Source: Bacillota bacterium (GTDB lineage Bacteria > Bacillota > Clostridia > Acetivibrionales > JAMNYG01). Taken from it: 38,639 nucleotides of DNA. Both the position numbers and the translations under genes were made by a program. Numbering within the stretch: position 1 is the first letter of the stretch; each line of letters begins with the position of its first letter. The stretch lies in the NCBI GenBank assembly GCA_023622945.1, contig JAMNYG010000200.1:1-38639 (forward strand), given 5' to 3'. Positions 25,415-34,467 of this stretch are shown here, one piece after another. The notes under the pieces were generated by a model that had not been told where the DNA came from, did not search any database, and saw only the letters and a program-made list of their open reading frames with translations.

Positions 25415-25807
25415 ATGGAAAAAGTGCAGTATTACGGAACCGGCAGAAGAAAGAAAGCGGTAGCGAGAGTCAGACTTGTTCCCGGAGACGGAAAAATCAC
25501 AATTAACGATAGAAGCCTTGATGATTATTTTGGTTTGGAAACCTTGAAGGTTATAGTAAGACAGCCACTGGTACTTACAGATACAGCTTCAAAATTCGAT
25601 GTGTTATGCAATGTACAGGGCGGAGGATTTACCGGCCAGGCAGGTGCAATAAGGCATGGTATAGCAAGAGCCCTTGTTAAGGCGGATGAAGAATTAAGAC
25701 CCATACTGAAAAAAGCAGGTTTCCTTACAAGAGACCCAAGAATGAAGGAAAGAAAGAAGTACGGTCTCAAGAAAGCGAGAAGGGCACCTCAGTTCTCAAA
25801 GAGATAA
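25415..25807 (+). CDS. rpsI: 30S ribosomal protein S9
   Basis: [27 protein letters not shown]-term [11 protein letters not shown]. Confidence 0.98.
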
Positions 25808-25828
25808 TCGGATACAGTTTCGGTCGGA

Positions 25829-25854
25829 AGAGCTACAGAAATGTGGCTCTTTTA
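25829..25854 (+). terminator. Terminator after rpsI (AGAGCTACA-GAAA-TGTGGCTCT + TTT)
   Basis: 9-bp stem, GAAA tetraloop, T tail. Confidence 0.85.
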
Positions 25855-26057
25855 TTATGCGCTTCGGTCTGTTGAGCCGGCACAGGGAGGCGACAAAAGA
25901 AGTTATTATACAGCAATATTAGATATTTTTCTTTGAAGGAAAAAGCAAATCGTTCTTGAATATAGAAATGTAATATATTTACTGAGAAGGTATTTCCGGT
26001 ATTTTCTGTCAGGTAGTTTAAGCTCATGGAAAACGAATCCTTGGAGTTGAAAAGTTA

Positions 26058-27137
26058 ATGGATAAATGGAATGGAATAAAAACAAGGCTTGGGACACTTT
26101 CTAAAACAGCTTTATTTTTTATCATATTAGCATGGATTGTTATTGCTGCATTAACTGCTCATGCTTTTACAACAAGTCAATTCATTGAGCAGAAATTTAA
26201 TAAAAATGTAATTACTCAAAGGACAGTGTTTGATTATAAAACCAAAGAATTGCCATACGGGATCATTGGAGTTGAAGGAATTATATTCCCCAAAACACAA
26301 AATATCATAGATGTATACATTAACACTACGATAACAGCTATTGAACCTGTTTATGTTAGCGGAAATTATTCCATACTGCTTAAAATAATGGCTGAAGAGT
26401 TATGGGAACGTACTGTAACCGTGAAAAGCAAGCAAAATTTCAGTTATGAAGGAGAAACTGTAGAGTTAATAAATCAAAAGGTGTCAATTGATTTGGAGAA
26501 GATTTTTAGTGAGATAGAAATGATTTCCAATGAAATAATTGGGTACAGACCGGGCAAGTTTTTACTAAATATTGTCCCGATTATCGAGGGAGATATTACT
26601 TATGAAAGTAATAAGATTGATCTTGAATCAAATATGGCTATGAAATTTGAGCTTTCTCAGGGTCAAGTGATGTTAACCGGCGAAAAGGAATTTTCAAAGC
26701 AGACCCCCGTTGACCAAGTCAAAGTACTGGAACAAAAAATAGATTTATTTGGCCTGATGATACCTGTTCCGGTTTATAGGTATGTCTCGCTTCCTGTTTT
26801 TCTGATTTATTCCTGCTTTGCATTACTGGTATTAATATCAAAAAGGCAAGTAAGAATTGAACAAATGACTGAAGCTGACGAGATAGAAAGGAAATATAAG
26901 AACAGGTTGATTTCCGTACGACAACCCGTGGATTGTAAGGATAAAACACCCATTTGCCTTGAAAGTATGAAATCATTGGTCAGGATAGCGGATGAGCAAG
27001 ACAGAGGAATACTTAAATATCACAGTGATACGGAGGAAAAGATATTTTACCATGTGATTGAAGGGAATTATATCTATACATATGCCATTGATAAAAATAG
27101 CATCGGGGAAAAAGAGAAGCAATATGATTACATATAG
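26058..27137 (+). CDS. DUF5305-like two-TM membrane protein
   Basis: N-terminal TM, ~220-aa beta-rich extracytoplasmic region, second TM (YVSLPVFLIYSCFALLVLIS), cytoplasmic tail ending ILKYHSDTEEKIFYHVIEGNYIYTYAI; located beside DUF1102-like genes and a SipW-type peptidase. Confidence 0.6.
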   Translation: MDKWNGIKTRLGTLSKTALFFIILAWIVIAALTAHAFTTSQFIEQKFNKNVITQRTVFDYKTKELPYGIIGVEGIIFPKTQNIIDVYINTTITAIEPVYVSGNYSILLKIMAEELWERTVTVKSKQNFSYEGETVELINQKVSIDLEKIFSEIEMISNEIIGYRPGKFLLNIVPIIEGDITYESNKIDLESNMAMKFELSQGQVMLTGEKEFSKQTPVDQVKVLEQKIDLFGLMIPVPVYRYVSLPVFLIYSCFALLVLISKRQVRIEQMTEADEIERKYKNRLISVRQPVDCKDKTPICLESMKSLVRIADEQDRGILKYHSDTEEKIFYHVIEGNYIYTYAIDKNSIGEKEKQYDYI

Positions 27138-27145
27138 AAATCTAA

Positions 27146-27324
27146 ATTTAAACCCCTCCTCAAATATTACTCCAAAGTATACCATGCGGTTAGCCTTAAG
27201 TATAAGGCAGTTACTATACGTACCAAATCTTAAGAGTAGTCCGGGGGTCAATGTATCAATGTCCAAGATAAGAGATAATGTACTTGTCAAATAACAAATA
27301 AAAGATTTGGGAGGGTTTTTAAAT
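27146..27324 (+). promoter_or_regulatory. Long-range RBS-sequestering leader with two competing pairing partners
   Basis: ATTTAAA-CCCTCC-CAAAT (27146-27165) complements ATTTG-GGAGGG-TTTAAAT (27305-27324, includes RBS and the AT of ATG); alternative CCAAATCTT (27223-27231) complements AAGATTTGG (27302-27310); internal hairpin GCCTTA-AGTA-TAAGGC 27193-27208. Confidence 0.5.
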
Positions 27325-27976
27325 GAAAAAAGGCAGAATTCTGGTAGTGCTGTCACTTTTGTTGGTGGCTACTGTGATGGCTGCATTGGGAACCGGAGCT
27401 ATTGATGTTTTTACTGCTAACCGTTCAGTAAGTGCTAAAATTGTAGACGATACAAAAGGTTTTATTGGAATCTCAACAGATTCTCCGTATGCTTTCTTTA
27501 ACAACAGAGGTGCTCTTGAAATAAAATTCGCTTCAAATTATGGAGCTCAAGGATTTAACCCTGATTCCAGAACTTTAATCAAAAACCTTTTCACAATAAC
27601 TAATCAAAGCGGGAATAAAGTATATGTATGGTTAGAAGCAGATAAAGATTATAGTACAGCAGAACATTATGCATTTAAATACAGGGTTCAAGAGGGTTAT
27701 GAGGGTGTGCTTCATAGAGCAATTTATACCAGTAATTATTCCAACAGTAATCCACTTAGAAGGGTTCTAATATCCGATGTAGGAAGAAATTTTAAAGACG
27801 GTAAAGATGGAGAAAATGCTTACATGGAGCTGGAGCCCGGTCAATCCTTTGTTGTGGAGGTAGATGTAGCAACTCTTACAAACTATGGGAAAGCAGGAAC
27901 AAATCTGGATCATACTTTAATCATAAAAGCTGATAAAACTGCACCGACACAAAAATATCCAGACCCATTTAAATAA
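27323..27976 (+). CDS. Secreted DUF1102/camelysin-like protein (SipW-type substrate candidate)
   Basis: Signal sequence MKKGRILVVLSLLLVATVMAALGTGAIDVFTANRSVSAKIVDDTKGFIGI; shares the IDVF.A.R.V.A.IV.D..F.GI motif with the 29561 gene product. Confidence 0.6.
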   Translation: MKKGRILVVLSLLLVATVMAALGTGAIDVFTANRSVSAKIVDDTKGFIGISTDSPYAFFNNRGALEIKFASNYGAQGFNPDSRTLIKNLFTITNQSGNKVYVWLEADKDYSTAEHYAFKYRVQEGYEGVLHRAIYTSNYSNSNPLRRVLISDVGRNFKDGKDGENAYMELEPGQSFVVEVDVATLTNYGKAGTNLDHTLIIKADKTAPTQKYPDPFK

Positions 27977-28035
27977 TTAGCTCATACTTCAATCTAAAGA
28001 GCCTGTGAAAGTAAACCAGTAATATAGTGTAATTG

Positions 28036-28067
28036 GCAGGACTTAGGAATAAAGCCTAAAGTCCTGC
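28036..28067 (+). terminator. Intercistronic hairpin GCAGGACTTAGG / CCTAAAGTCCTGC between the DUF1102-like gene and the signal peptidase gene
   Basis: 9+3 bp stem with one bulged A; weak T tail, so possibly partial terminator or mRNA stabiliser. Confidence 0.5.
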
Positions 28068-28103
28068 TTAATTATGTATAATCTAAACGAAAAAGGGGCT
28101 TCT

Positions 28104-29228
28104 ATGAATATCATAAAAATTATAATTAATTGTTTAACTTTCATATTAGTAATTTTTCTATTAACATTGACAGCATTTAGTTTTATTTACAAAAACCCTG
28201 AAAAGTCACCGATAAGCTTGTGGTATGTATATTCGGAAAGCATGGAGCCAACGATTAAGACTAATGACGGGTTTATACTGATTTCCTCAAAAACCTATGA
28301 AACAGGAGATATCATTACATTTAAACCTAAAGTTTTGGAACAACCCTATGTAACCCACAGAATAATCGATATTACTTTGGATAGAGAATATATTACAAAG
28401 GGCGACAACAATATTATGACGGATCAACAGGGAGGGGAGCCTCCCATACAGCTTGACCAGGTGATAGGCAAAGCACTGTGCATATCAGGAAAACTTATAG
28501 TCTTGCCCAAGTTAGGTTTGATATCCCAAAAAATTCAGAAGAGCATGCCAAAAATAAACGTGTTTACTTTAATATCTGTAATAATTCTTATATATGCTTT
28601 AGGGTTTGTACTGGATATGATATTTAACAAGGAGAATACCAGGAAGAATAAAAAGAAAAGAATTCGCTTACTCGATATTGCACCCTTTTTTGATCCTTTA
28701 TTCTTAATAATGTGCATACTGATCATCATTAATACTCTAATTGTCGGGCAAACCATCAAGAGTTGGAAAACGGAAGAGATCTCATATGTCGTTGTAAGCA
28801 GGGAAGGTTTACCTAATCCTATATCAGGAGAAAAGTTTGAAAGAATAAAGAGCCTGGAGAATTCATCAATCATTCCATATTATACTATTTTAGAGCCGAC
28901 AGACGGTAATATGACCATAAAACCAAGGATTTTACTGATACCTCCCAAAGAAAATGTTGATTACGTGGTATCTGTTACTGCACCTGAGAAAACTGGGTAC
29001 TATGTACAGAAAATTAACATAAAAACGTATCCGAAGCTAATTCCACCAAAATTATTGGAGCAGCTATATTCAATAAGTCCGTTTATACCACTGTTAATCA
29101 TCTTTTCTCCCGGAGTAATCATTGTTATTGTGTTGTATATTATTTGGATAAAAAGATGGGACGACAATAAGAGATTAATCATGGATTGCTTAATACCCCT
29201 TCGTACCAGATTGAAGAAGCTTGTATAA
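28104..29228 (+). CDS. Signal peptidase I, SipW/ER-archaeal type (Ser-His), with C-terminal extracytoplasmic domain and additional TM segments
   Basis: SESMEPTIKTNDGFILIS (Ser), YVTHRIIDI (His instead of Lys), YITKGDNNIMTD; further TMs INVFTLISVIILIYALGFVLDMIF, FLIMCILIIINTLIV, FIPLLIIFSPGVIIVIVLYIIWI. Confidence 0.8.
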   Translation: MNIIKIIINCLTFILVIFLLTLTAFSFIYKNPEKSPISLWYVYSESMEPTIKTNDGFILISSKTYETGDIITFKPKVLEQPYVTHRIIDITLDREYITKGDNNIMTDQQGGEPPIQLDQVIGKALCISGKLIVLPKLGLISQKIQKSMPKINVFTLISVIILIYALGFVLDMIFNKENTRKNKKKRIRLLDIAPFFDPLFLIMCILIIINTLIVGQTIKSWKTEEISYVVVSREGLPNPISGEKFERIKSLENSSIIPYYTILEPTDGNMTIKPRILLIPPKENVDYVVSVTAPEKTGYYVQKINIKTYPKLIPPKLLEQLYSISPFIPLLIIFSPGVIIVIVLYIIWIKRWDDNKRLIMDCLIPLRTRLKKLV

Positions 29229-29301
29229 AAATAGAGAAATAAGACGACAAAAAAATAGAAATTGGTTACAGATATTAACAAAATATTCATGAAAACTAAT
29301 A

Positions 29302-29346
29302 TATACTTTAATAAAGAACTGCTAAAAGCTATTATACTTTAATAAA
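29302..29346. repeat. 14-bp direct repeat TATACTTTAATAAA (29302-29315 and 29333-29346, 31-bp spacing)
   Basis: Exact duplicate immediately upstream of RNA element copy 1. Confidence 0.6.
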
Positions 29347-29350
29347 TGAA

Positions 29351-29452
29351 TTTGGGGACGATGAAGCATATATTGTATCTGGGCACCTGATATATGCTGA
29401 GTCAGTGGTGCAACCGACCAATGAGATAAAAATCTTATTGGTCTTATTTTTT
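29351..29452 (+). promoter_or_regulatory. Candidate cis-regulatory RNA (riboswitch-like), copy 1, with terminator GACCAATGAGAT-AAAA-ATCTTATTGGTC
   Basis: TTTGGGGACGATGAAGC / CTGGGCACCTG / AGTGGTGCAACCGACCAATG blocks shared with copy 2; stem GCATATATT/GATATATGC; perfect 12-bp terminator then TTATTTTTT. Confidence 0.75.
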
Positions 29453-29560
29453 GAAGTCTTTCCAGGAAGTATAGTTTTATCCGAATATGTATATAATTTA
29501 AAAGATGGAAAATGCTGCACAAATTATGCGGGCTTTAAAGGAAAGAAGGGATTTTGCGGG

Positions 29561-30349
29561 ATGAAAAGAAAAGGTAATAAAACACCGCTGTCTTTACCCT
29601 ATATAATATTGTTGGTACTGGCTTTAGTATGGATTGCTGTTTCCCAAAGCAGCTTTGGAATAGATGTCTTCCAGGCAGGAAGAGGAGTAAACGCCAGGAT
29701 TGTTTCCGATGACAGGGCTTTTGTCGGAATAATATATAATGATGTCTATAAAGTTGTATATTCCAATGATGGTAATAATAATTATATTACCATGCGTATC
29801 GAAAATAACCTTCCTTACAGAGCGTCATATGAATTGGTTTTATCGGGTCTGCCAATTAAAGATTTCACACCGGGCAGGTTTACACTGGATCCCAATGAAA
29901 GACAATTGATTGAAATCCAGATGTTAGATTTGGAAGAGGCTGTTGAAGGAATTTTTAGCGTCCAGGGTTACATTTCGGCAGAATTTGCTCATGGAAGTGT
30001 AGATGTAGCATTCCGGTTTGAAGTAGAGGTTGAGTTGCCGGAACCGGAATCGGTTGAAGGAGAAGAAACTTCACAATCGGAACAAAAATCAGATGAAATT
30101 GAGATTTTACATGCTGAAACACATGTAGGGCCGGAAGAGGATGTCATTGAAGAAAATGTCATAGAAGATGATGGGAACAAAATTAAGGAGGATGAAACCG
30201 ATTCAGCTGATAATAAAGAAAATGATTCAACTGACATAAAAAATGATGATGGAAATGGGGAAAACGGTAATGAAAAACTAACGGAAGAAATAAGCCAAGA
30301 GAATTTACCCGGTGAACCTGAAGATAATTCTAATTCAGCAGAACAATAA
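29561..30349 (+). CDS. Secreted DUF1102-like protein with ~100-aa acidic, low-complexity C-terminal tail (ATG 29561; ORF track start 29405 lies in the leader RNA)
   Basis: TM LPYIILLVLALVWIAVSQSSFGIDVFQAGRGVNARIVSDDRAFVGI; D/E/N/S-rich tail. Confidence 0.6.
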   Translation: MKRKGNKTPLSLPYIILLVLALVWIAVSQSSFGIDVFQAGRGVNARIVSDDRAFVGIIYNDVYKVVYSNDGNNNYITMRIENNLPYRASYELVLSGLPIKDFTPGRFTLDPNERQLIEIQMLDLEEAVEGIFSVQGYISAEFAHGSVDVAFRFEVEVELPEPESVEGEETSQSEQKSDEIEILHAETHVGPEEDVIEENVIEDDGNKIKEDETDSADNKENDSTDIKNDDGNGENGNEKLTEEISQENLPGEPEDNSNSAEQ

Positions 30350-30367
30350 TCAGAGCATTTTTCAGGG

Positions 30368-30396
30368 AGATAAGATTTAATTTTTATCTTTTTTTC
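30368..30396 (+). terminator. Weak terminator AGATAA...TTATCT + T7
   Basis: 6-bp AT-rich stem followed by a T run after stop 30349. Confidence 0.5.
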
Positions 30397-30528
30397 ATTT
30401 CCAATAAATACAATAAATTATAAATAATAACAAGAGATGATGCGAATAATTTCTTGATCGACATCAGGTATTTGCAAATTATGTAAACAAAAGCTGGTAA
30501 AATGATTATTGGACAATCATAAAGTACT

Positions 30529-30628
30529 TTTGGGGACGATGAAGCATGTACCGTAACCTGGGCACCTGGTGCATGCCGAGTTAGTGGTGCAACCGACCAA
30601 TGGGATTAACCATCTTATTGGTTTTTTG
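30529..30628 (+). promoter_or_regulatory. Candidate cis-regulatory RNA (riboswitch-like), copy 2, with terminator ACCAATGGGAT-TAACC-ATCTTATTGGT + T-run
   Basis: Same conserved blocks as copy 1; stem GCATGTACC/GGTGCATGC has compensatory changes relative to copy 1. Confidence 0.75.
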
Positions 30629-30661
30629 TTTTCTATATCGCAATATCCGGGAAGGGATTTT

Positions 30662-32365
30662 ATGCTGGAGGTAATTGTTAATAAAATAGCAGGTAATAAT
30701 TCAAGGGAAATCAAGGTCATATACTTATACAGATATCTTTCGTGGGTCTTTACTTCCATATTTTATTTATTTGATAGTCGGACTAAATATTTGCTTTTTA
30801 AAATAGGGGTTATAATCATTCTGTTCATAACTTCCAAAATAGTGACAGATTTATATGCCAGATATTCGAACAATTCAAAGGCTGTCAAGAGCCTGGTTTT
30901 AACTGAAACCGCCGGAATTTCACTGCTGTTGATACCAACTGGAGGGTTGGACAGCCCATTTATCTGGTATGCAATGAATCCGGTATTAGTTTCTGCAAGC
31001 TTTTTAACCGGGTTGTTTTGTTGGTTTAATCTTGTTTTCTATCTGGCTGTATCAACCAGTATATCATATTTTATTTTCAATGCTGAGAAAAATACAGCCA
31101 TTAAAATCTTATCCGTCAATTCGCATCTGATCCTTATATTCATTTTGATGACTTTAGGATTACAGTTATTATCAAGGCTGGCCCATGAGTTAAATAATGA
31201 GAGGAATAATCTAAGGGAGAGAAATTATCAGTTGGCAGAGGCAAATGAAAAGATAAAAGAATCCATGGAACATATCATGTCACTCTATCAGGCAGTTGAA
31301 ATGTTTTCAGCACAAGACAGCAGGGAAAAGCTGATGAATACCATTATTTATTACGCTAAGGAACTGACAAAATCAAGATCTTTATTCTTTAAACAATCAG
31401 GCTTAAATAACTCAAACAGAATCATTACATGCGGAGATATTTCTCCGGATATTCATTTGTTAATAGAGAGGGAATTAAGCAACATTCCTGAAATGAAAGA
31501 ATTGGATAAGAATATAGTACATATAAGAATTCAGAACAGGATATTTGCTGTAAGCGTTGTAAAATCAGCATCAAGGCTGTTCGGAATTCTGGGCGTTGAA
31601 ATGGATGAATTTCAGGAAAATGATTATTTGTATAAAAAACTGTTTAGCTTTTTGACAGAACTTAGTGCTGTAATTCTTGAAAGATTGTATTTGGAGGAGA
31701 TCGCTCAAAAACTGGCCGTAACCGAGGAACAGAACCGTATAGCAAATGAAATGCATGACAGTGTTTCCCAAAGGCTTTTCAGTATCTCATGTGCAATACA
31801 CACACTGGTAGCAAAACATTCCAAGCTATCCGATACAGAACTGCGTGACCAGTTAATAAGGATCATGGAAAACTCAAATATGGCCATGAAGGAACTGCGG
31901 TCAACCATATATAAACTTAGTTCAAAAAAACAGGGAAGAAGGCCTTTTCTTTCGGACATTAAAGATTATCTTGACAGTATTGCAAAATTAAATAATGTTG
32001 ATGTCAGTTTCAAATGTTCCGGAGATGAAGATTTATTAACAGGAGCAGTAAAAAAAGCAATATACAGAATTATAGCGGAATCAACAGGTAATTCTGTAAA
32101 GCATGGCAAGTGCAGCGAAATCAATATTGAACTTAATGTAAAAAATACCTGCACCGAACTAATCATAAAAGATAACGGAAAAGGATTTATTGTTGAAGAT
32201 GCAGGCAAAAGGAACGGTCTTGGGATCAATAACATAAAAAGGCTGGTGAATTCTTTCAATGGCAGTCTTAATATTGACAGCGCACCAGAAAAGGGAACAT
32301 GCATCAGGATAAATATTCCCAACGGGAATTTGGTTACTCTGGATGAAGGAGGTTTGGTGGTATGA
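30662..32365 (+). CDS. Membrane sensor histidine kinase, NarL/DesK (HisKA_3) type (ATG 30662; ORF track start 30569 lies in the leader RNA)
   Basis: Several TMs; coiled coil and GAF-like region; EEQNRIANEMHDSVSQRLFSISCAIHTL; HATPase IIKDNGKGFIVEDAGKRNGLGINNIKRLV. Confidence 0.88.
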   Translation: MLEVIVNKIAGNNSREIKVIYLYRYLSWVFTSIFYLFDSRTKYLLFKIGVIIILFITSKIVTDLYARYSNNSKAVKSLVLTETAGISLLLIPTGGLDSPFIWYAMNPVLVSASFLTGLFCWFNLVFYLAVSTSISYFIFNAEKNTAIKILSVNSHLILIFILMTLGLQLLSRLAHELNNERNNLRERNYQLAEANEKIKESMEHIMSLYQAVEMFSAQDSREKLMNTIIYYAKELTKSRSLFFKQSGLNNSNRIITCGDISPDIHLLIERELSNIPEMKELDKNIVHIRIQNRIFAVSVVKSASRLFGILGVEMDEFQENDYLYKKLFSFLTELSAVILERLYLEEIAQKLAVTEEQNRIANEMHDSVSQRLFSISCAIHTLVAKHSKLSDTELRDQLIRIMENSNMAMKELRSTIYKLSSKKQGRRPFLSDIKDYLDSIAKLNNVDVSFKCSGDEDLLTGAVKKAIYRIIAESTGNSVKHGKCSEINIELNVKNTCTELIIKDNGKGFIVEDAGKRNGLGINNIKRLVNSFNGSLNIDSAPEKGTCIRINIPNGNLVTLDEGGLVV

Positions 32366-32973
32366 GAATTGGCATAATTGATGATCATCCTCTTGTAAGG
32401 CAGGGGCTTATCTCAATTCTTTCATTGTATGAAGATTTTGAAATTATGGGTGAAGCAACCAATTGTCAGGAAGGCATAGCTATGATAATGGAGAAAAGGC
32501 CGGAGATTGTACTTATTGACCTGAAACTTGGAAATGAATGCGGTCTTGATATTATAAAAGAAGTGAAGAACAAAACAGAATCCAGATTTGTAGTACTTAC
32601 TTCGTCAGCTGAACAGAGTGATTTCCTGCAGGCAGAAATGCTGGATGTTGACGGATATATACTGAAAGAAGCCCTTCCTGAAGAACTCATATACGGATTG
32701 AGATTGATTTATAAAGGCAGGAAATACTACGATCCGGGTCTTGTGAGATTGCAAATGAAGAGGAATGATGATCCTCTTGAACTGCTTACGCAAAGGGAGA
32801 AGGAAGTTCTTTTGGCTTTGGGAGAGGGGTTAAGCAACAGGGAGATTTCTCAAAAACTTTATGTGACTGAACACACCGTAAAAAAACATGTAAGCCAGAT
32901 CCTGGCAAAGCTGAATCTTTCCAACAGAACCGATGCTATTATTTTTGCCTACAACAAGGGATTGATAGGCTGA
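32362..32973 (+). CDS. NarL/LuxR-family response regulator
   Basis: MRIGIIDDHPLVRQGLISIL; EIVLIDLKLG; LTQREKEVLLALGEGLSNREISQKLYVTEHTVKKHVSQILAKLNLSNRTDAI; ATGA overlap with the kinase gene. Confidence 0.95.
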   Translation: MRIGIIDDHPLVRQGLISILSLYEDFEIMGEATNCQEGIAMIMEKRPEIVLIDLKLGNECGLDIIKEVKNKTESRFVVLTSSAEQSDFLQAEMLDVDGYILKEALPEELIYGLRLIYKGRKYYDPGLVRLQMKRNDDPLELLTQREKEVLLALGEGLSNREISQKLYVTEHTVKKHVSQILAKLNLSNRTDAIIFAYNKGLIG

Positions 32974-33007
32974 TATATTCTATGAAAAGCGGATACATAC
33001 GAATTGA

Positions 33008-33042
33008 AACCGTCAAAGAGTATTTACCTTTGGCGGTTTTTA
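33008..33042 (+). terminator. Terminator after the response regulator (AACCGTCAAAG / CTTTGGCGGTT + TTTTAT)
   Basis: 11-bp stem with one G-U, T tail. Confidence 0.85.
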
Positions 33043-33246
33043 TATGTAAAACATCGGTTGGGATTAAACCGTTAAAGTCAACGTGTGTTGTTTTTTGAAA
33101 CTGGTTATATTACAATATATCTTAAAAAGCACGGTAAATAACTGCAGAATCAAGAATAAAGGTCTGTTTCTGAGTTAATATGCTCAATAAAATGAAGTTA
33201 ATGCGCCAGATAAATTTAAAATACATATGTTATGGAGGCATTCGCT

Positions 33247-34467
33247 ATGCTGCTTATAAAAAATGGGAAAATCTTTACCATGGCAGGTAAGACTTATGAA
33301 AACGGATATATTCTCATCGACAAAGGGAAAATAATAGAGACGGGCAATGGTTCCTGGGAACCTGGAAGCAGAACTTGCCAAAGCGAAGCGGATAAAAGCT
33401 GTGACAGCAGCCAGCTTAAAATAATAGATGCAAAAGGCAGATATGTACTTCCCGGGTTTATAGATGCCCATTGTCACGTTGGCATGTGGGAGGATGCTGT
33501 AGGGTTTGAGGGCGCAGACGGGAATGAGATGACCGACCCCGTGACACCGCATCTTAGAGCTATAGACGGAGTATATTACAAGGACAGATCCTTTGCTGAA
33601 GCTCTTGAGTACGGAGTAACTACGGCTGTTACCGGCCCGGGAAGCGCAAATGTTATCGGTGGACAGTTTGCTGCGCTGAAAACCTATGGCAACCGGCTTG
33701 AGGACATGATACTGAAGGAACCTGTAGCCATGAAGGTGGCTTTTGGAGAGAACCCAAAAACCGTTTACGGCGGAAATAAGAAATCTCCCATGACACGCAT
33801 GGCAACGGCTGCCATATTGAGGGAGAATCTCATAAAGGCCAGGCAGTACAAGCAAAAGCTGGAAGATTACTATAAGGATAAGGAAAAGAACCAAAAACCT
33901 GATTTCGACATGAAAATGGAAGCTCTTTTGATGGTTCTGAACGGGGAGATTCCTCTGAAGGCCCATGCCCATAGAGCCGATGATATTCTTACGGCCATCA
34001 GGATTGCAAAGGAATTCAATTTGAAAATAACACTGGAGCACTGCACCGAGGGACATCTGATAAAAGACATTCTGTTGGAAGAAGGGATACCGGTTGTAAT
34101 AGGGCCATCCTTATCCGACAGATCAAAGATTGAGCTGAGGAACCAAAGCCTGAAAACCCCGGGTATACTGTCAAAAGCCGGAGTAAAGGTTGCCATTATG
34201 ACCGACCATCCGGTGATACCTCTCAAGTACCTGGGCCTTTGTGCTGCCATGGCAGTGAAGGAAGGCATGCCTGAGGAAGATGCATTAAAGGCTATAACCA
34301 TAAACGCAGCTGAGATTGCAGGTATCAGCGACAGGGTAGGAAGCATTGAAGCAGGAAAGGATGCCGATATAGTGATATTCAGCGGACATCCCTTCGAATT
34401 CAGATCAAAAGTTGACATGACAATAATTAACGGTAGTGTGGTTTATGAGAGATGTGAAAATGAATAG
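33247..34467 (+). CDS. Imidazolonepropionase-like amidohydrolase (ATG 33247)
   Basis: GRYVLPGFIDAHCHVGMWED (HxH); KAHAHRADDI; EHCTEGHLI; MTDHPVIPL; GSIEAGKDADIVIFSGHPFE. Confidence 0.88.
   Translation: MLLIKNGKIFTMAGKTYENGYILIDKGKIIETGNGSWEPGSRTCQSEADKSCDSSQLKIIDAKGRYVLPGFIDAHCHVGMWEDAVGFEGADGNEMTDPVTPHLRAIDGVYYKDRSFAEALEYGVTTAVTGPGSANVIGGQFAALKTYGNRLEDMILKEPVAMKVAFGENPKTVYGGNKKSPMTRMATAAILRENLIKARQYKQKLEDYYKDKEKNQKPDFDMKMEALLMVLNGEIPLKAHAHRADDILTAIRIAKEFNLKITLEHCTEGHLIKDILLEEGIPVVIGPSLSDRSKIELRNQSLKTPGILSKAGVKVAIMTDHPVIPLKYLGLCAAMAVKEGMPEEDALKAITINAAEIAGISDRVGSIEAGKDADIVIFSGHPFEFRSKVDMTIINGSVVYERCENE

Follow-up and report, generated by a model that had tools for sequence, protein, structure and literature searches.

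Two similar RNA elements, each running into a terminator, stand in one gene cluster of the analyzed window, the whole stretch of DNA being 38,639 nucleotides long. Do they represent an unrecognised riboswitch class, as the initial annotation had claimed, and which genes would they control?

Identification of the two elements

The Rfam search that the initial annotation had proposed, naming a clear match to a known class as the outcome that would overturn its claim, was run using cmscan and Rfam 15. Both copies were full-length matches to RF01786 (c-di-GMP-II riboswitch), for which the gathering score is 53.5 bits:

29345..29428, + strand, c-di-GMP-II riboswitch aptamer copy 1 (80.5 bits, E 7.4e-17, model positions 1-84 of 84)
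30523..30607, + strand, c-di-GMP-II riboswitch aptamer copy 2 (73.4 bits, E 7.3e-15, model positions 1-84 of 84)

These scores refuted the claim of an unrecognised class and settled the candidate: both elements belong to the known c-di-GMP-II class as ordinary members, with nothing different about them at class level. Their E values (7e-17 and 7e-15) place both far above chance, and the aptamer starts, 29345 and 30523, lie slightly 5' of where they had been placed initially. Rescanning of positions 25800-33300 against Rfam up to E = 1 gave nothing besides the two RF01786 matches. The c-di-GMP-I riboswitch (RF01051) had no match at gathering score in the whole window, and relaxing the limit to E = 1 over 25800-33300 also gave none, which ruled out membership in that class. 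The faint c-di-GMP-I resemblance that had been remarked on held for the ligand but not for the class, since class II folds differently and the likeness to the window elements is limited to the ligand. On the basis of their sequence, both aptamers are predicted to bind c-di-GMP.

Structure and covariation of the aptamers

The window copies have P1, P2, the central hairpin, the pseudoknot and the conserved core in common with RF01786, and their P1 comprises only 4 bp, with its 3' strand within the terminator stem. The following parts were located:

29352..29355, + strand, P1 5' strand TTGG of copy 1, pairing with CCAA at 29418-29421 (Rfam P1 positions 8-11/74-77)
29366..29397, + strand, central hairpin of copy 1, GCATATATT...GATATATGC (sequence, and covariation over 34 aptamers)
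30544..30576, + strand, central hairpin of copy 2, GCATGTACC...GGTGCATGC (sequence, and covariation over 34 aptamers)

The segments TTTGGGGACGATGAAGC, CTGGGCACCTG and ATCTTATTGGT were common to both copies and the AGTGGTGCAACCGACCAATG block was identical in them, so that all blocks described as shared were confirmed on the sequence. The RF01786 consensus core segments GATGAAGC, TGGGCACC, GAG and AGTGGTGCAACCG were also found in both copies and are mostly common to other aptamers. In copy 2, P1 is formed by TTGG at 30530-30533 with CCAA at 30597-30600; the 4 bp (TTGG/CCAA) of each copy are the inner 4 bp of the model P1. The central stem is formed in copy 1 by 29366-29374 and 29389-29397, and in copy 2 by 30544-30552 and 30568-30576. 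Between the copies it showed two two-sided changes (A-T to G-C and T-A to C-G) and two one-sided changes (T-A to T-G and T-G to C-G), exactly the compensatory and half-compensatory changes reported before. The RF01786 pseudoknot (apical loop GGGCACC with downstream GGUGC) was present in both copies, in which loop GCACC at 29383-29387 is complementary to GGTGC at 29407-29411 (copy 1, the coordinates originally given for it) and GCACC at 30562-30566 to GGTGC at 30586-30590 (copy 2). When the whole elements were folded as single strands, with a program that leaves pseudoknots out of account, copy 1 gave an unusual fold (z -2.9) and copy 2 did not (z -1.0).

Covariation was analyzed in an alignment of 34 aptamers, consisting of the two window copies, four orthologous copies and 28 from other genomes. 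The helices and the pseudoknot were taken from the RF01786 model, so the test confirms the structure and does not discover it. The data showed that 89.6% of cells were paired across the RF01786 helices and pseudoknot, and that 22 of the 23 model pairs had two-sided changes. The covariation score was 0.650 in comparison with 0.248 in shuffled versions; none of 500 shuffles was as high, and slid versions reached at most 0.173. The pseudoknot was paired in 100% of cells, that is, in all 34 aptamers, with two-sided changes in four of its five pairs. Pairing was 98.9% in the central hairpin, 95.1% in P2 and 69.3% in P1 including its outer pairs, and all 18 pairs of these three helices showed two-sided changes.

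Terminators and expected direction of switching

Two intrinsic terminators were identified both by folding and by an independent terminator scan:

29416..29443, + strand, intrinsic terminator 1, a 12-bp stem followed by TTATTTTTT; its 5' arm includes the P1 3' strand at 29418-29421
30595..30623, + strand, intrinsic terminator 2; its 5' arm includes the P1 3' strand CCAA at 30597-30600

The folding energy was -16.2 kcal/mol (z -6.0) for terminator 1 and -12.5 kcal/mol (z -3.3) for terminator 2. The terminator begins within the 3' end of the aptamer and uses the P1 3' strand in both window copies and likewise in each of the four intact orthologues, and the same overlap was seen in 15 of the 28 other c-di-GMP-II aptamers sampled. 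P1 and terminator are therefore mutually exclusive. Because they share a strand, P1 stabilised by the ligand would disfavour the terminator, and an ON switch is expected at both positions. The terminators are much more stable than P1 with its mere 4 bp, which means that switching has to occur during transcription and under kinetic control. In C. difficile, class II switches turn transcription ON, apart from one that acts through translation/splicing (PMC11477304). Together with the use of the P1 3' strand by the terminators, this precedent supported the antitermination logic first suggested for the elements. The closing helix TTGG/CCAA was verified to overlap the 5' arm of the terminator in both copies, and the description of a pseudoknotted, terminator-coupled riboswitch was borne out by this overlap and the RF01786 matches.

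Genes around the switches

The gene order was DUF5305 protein, TasA/Tafi-like fibre protein, SipW/archaeal-type signal peptidase, switch 1, 262-aa protein, switch 2, histidine kinase and NarL-type response regulator:

26058..27137, + strand, DUF5305 membrane protein, first in the conserved cluster (PF17231, E 3.8e-14)
27323..27976, + strand, TasA/Tafi-like fibre protein (profile match to PDB 9p0a 'Pilin', 9p0a_C, E 1.2e-7)
28074..29228, + strand, SipW/archaeal-type signal peptidase, directly 5' of switch 1 (TIGR02228, E 1e-19, above the cut-off)
29561..30349, + strand, 262-aa predicted secreted/anchored protein behind switch 1 (AlphaFold model; orthologues in loci L044 and L053)
30662..32365, + strand, histidine kinase behind switch 2 (domain matches to HisKA_3 and HATPase_c)
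32362..32973, + strand, NarL/LuxR-type response regulator, overlapping the kinase gene by 4 bases (domain/family matches)

The fibre protein also had a weak NCBIfam match to TafE, and PDB 9p0a is the Natrinema Tafi pilus according to the fold-search description. Its fold search gave weak matches to 7ueg (Pyrobaculum bundling pili) and 7pnb (Sulfolobus 0406 filament), with E about 8e-3, because the model was poor (pLDDT 56.6). The fibre protein and the signal peptidase are closer to the archaeal Tafi-pilus and archaeal signal peptidase I families than to the Bacillus SipW models. The 262-aa protein had no match in Pfam or NCBIfam; its AlphaFold model consists of a hydrophobic helix at the N-terminus, then a beta-rich domain, and finally an acidic tail that is long and of low confidence, a layout that may be called TapA-like. 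A weak N-terminal similarity was seen between the fibre protein (27338-27505) and the 262-aa protein (29561-30349), with 43% over about 55 residues and E 6e-5, which suggests that the two are paralogous fibre subunits or have a signal/anchor region in common.

c-di-GMP machinery in the genome

The window genome, which is 86% complete, contained only these two class II switches. It encodes at least seven GGDEF, three EAL and two PilZ matches, and with these and a c-di-GMP-I riboswitch the ligand is plausibly both made and used. The single class I switch lies on another contig (G000:C123:14821-14905; L040, L045), about 120 nt 5' of an 852-aa GGDEF-EAL ORF, so that a c-di-GMP enzyme is apparently under c-di-GMP control. 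By reading of its sequence this ORF resembles PAS at its start and PilZ at its end; the PilZ scan did not list it.

Proposed regulation and alternative explanations

The two elements are very probably c-di-GMP-II switches with terminator platforms and ON logic, switch 1 serving the fibre accessory protein and switch 2 the kinase and regulator. When c-di-GMP is absent, the P1 3' strand CCAA would be drawn into the terminator hairpin (12-bp) and transcription would end before the gene. When c-di-GMP is bound, the pseudoknotted aptamer would keep P1 (TTGG/CCAA) closed, the terminator would be blocked and read-through would follow. Switch 1 would gate a secreted protein with an accessory role in a TasA/Tafi-like fibre operon, and switch 2 the operon's own histidine kinase and response regulator; a high level of c-di-GMP thus probably allows the surface-fibre accessory gene and the two genes of the regulatory system to be transcribed. 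The likeness of the operon layout to C. perfringens bsaRS suggests that the kinase/regulator pair may activate the operon. If it does so like BsaRS, high c-di-GMP would raise the accessory subunit and add a feed-forward step that would favour sessile growth; we infer both this step and the role in the matrix. The widest reading, that one fibre operon has two separate c-di-GMP-II ON switches gating an accessory subunit and its own two-component activator as a feed-forward loop, with switches gained and lost independently across species, is tentative and rather doubtful in its entirety.

Three other explanations were weighed. An uncharacterised new class had been proposed when the earlier reader was unable to place the element; it was ruled out by the full-length matches of 80.5 and 73.4 bits, the Rfam consensus core is kept, and copy 1 outscored all other aptamers in the comparison listing, which leaves this proposal practically no probability. 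Some riboswitch scaffolds include specificity variants, and sequence alone cannot give specificity, so a c-di-GMP-II scaffold with an altered ligand preference (e.g. another cyclic dinucleotide) and unchanged ON logic may be considered. Such a preference is highly improbable here, given that the consensus core segments of both copies are largely those of other aptamers and that c-di-GMP enzymes as well as a class I c-di-GMP riboswitch are encoded in the genome. The aptamers might also work with the opposite sign (OFF), or one switch alone might be active, as P1 is short (4 bp) and its extension is broken by a U-U mismatch. However, a stabilised P1 must disfavour a terminator built on the same strand, no separate anti-terminator was evident, and relative L053 keeps both copies; we consider an OFF switch or a single active switch quite unlikely.

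Orthologous loci

The gene cluster recurs in three other Clostridia, at loci L044 (G309), L053 (DUMB01000090.1) and L054 (DUMC01000019.1); a family-level genome search returned only the window's own genome. L053 has kept both switches. L044 has switch 1 only, and its kinase gene begins 48 nt past the preceding gene. In L054, switch 2 is intact, while switch 1 is recognisable but degraded and under the Rfam threshold. The degraded copy (L054:7240-7390) has an internal insertion and core changes with a terminator still recognisable, and the 262-aa gene of this locus is without its N-terminal half; switch 1 and its target gene have thus decayed together. Taken together, the four orthologous loci offer a small natural series in which gain and loss of regulation can be studied: two have both switches, one has only the first, and one has only the second intact beside a decayed first.

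Copy 1 was 88% identical to a relative's copy 1 and copy 2 was 90% identical to copy 2, in comparison with 83% between copy 1 and copy 2. The copies group by position and not by genome, which ruled out a recent local duplication; the duplication therefore took place before at least three lineages split. A phage origin was ruled out by the lack of similar DNA in phage records.

Comparison with known systems

Adhesins, type IV pili and the CmrRST signal-transduction system are under class II control in C. difficile (PMC11477304). The switches of CD2831, CD3246, the pilin operon and cmrRST likewise stand before surface structures and a signal-transduction operon with ON logic, but in that species the genes for adhesins, pilus and regulator form separate entries, whereas both window switches lie inside one fibre cluster. 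Tandem c-di-GMP-II riboswitches, of which 59 doublets and 9 triplets have been described, also place two switches of the same class near each other, mostly before one surface-anchor gene (PMC9481103). The window copies are about 1.2 kb and one gene apart, and therefore each would gate a different gene. With switches at two positions of a fibre operon, the locus departs only mildly from the known tandem systems, and its modest novelty lies in the separate gating of two steps in one operon.

The C. perfringens sipW-bsaABCRSD pellicle-biofilm operon requires BsaRS for its expression and has a mid-operon terminator with read-through (PMC7395162). It resembles the window cluster in layout and gene types, having SipW, a fibre-forming protein, other secreted proteins, a two-component system and a terminator part-way, but its gene order is different, DUF5305 belongs to the window cluster, and no c-di-GMP riboswitch has been described for it (PMC7395162). 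Through the present locus, c-di-GMP-II control is connected with a SipW/TasA-like fibre operon of uncultured Clostridia and with the two-component system of that operon, a link for which no paper was found in a literature search of incomplete coverage.

Upstream sequences and a mixed array in a relative

A candidate promoter of switch 1 was named because it is conserved:

29275..29302, + strand, candidate promoter of switch 1, TTAACA-16-TAATAT (consensus only)

The relatives have a TTTACA-N17-TATAAT-like sequence at this position. The promoter scan gave 30 sites against 30.2 in shuffles, with no excess, and only the conserved candidate is named. A block like ACAGNTATTTACAAA was observed 5' of both switches, at 29268-29282 and 30464-30478, and also in relatives; it is possibly a shared promoter or a response-regulator site that was duplicated along with the switch. 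In another relative (L046:2036-2428), three aptamers are adjacent, one c-di-GMP-I-GGC followed by two c-di-GMP-II that are 2 nt apart.
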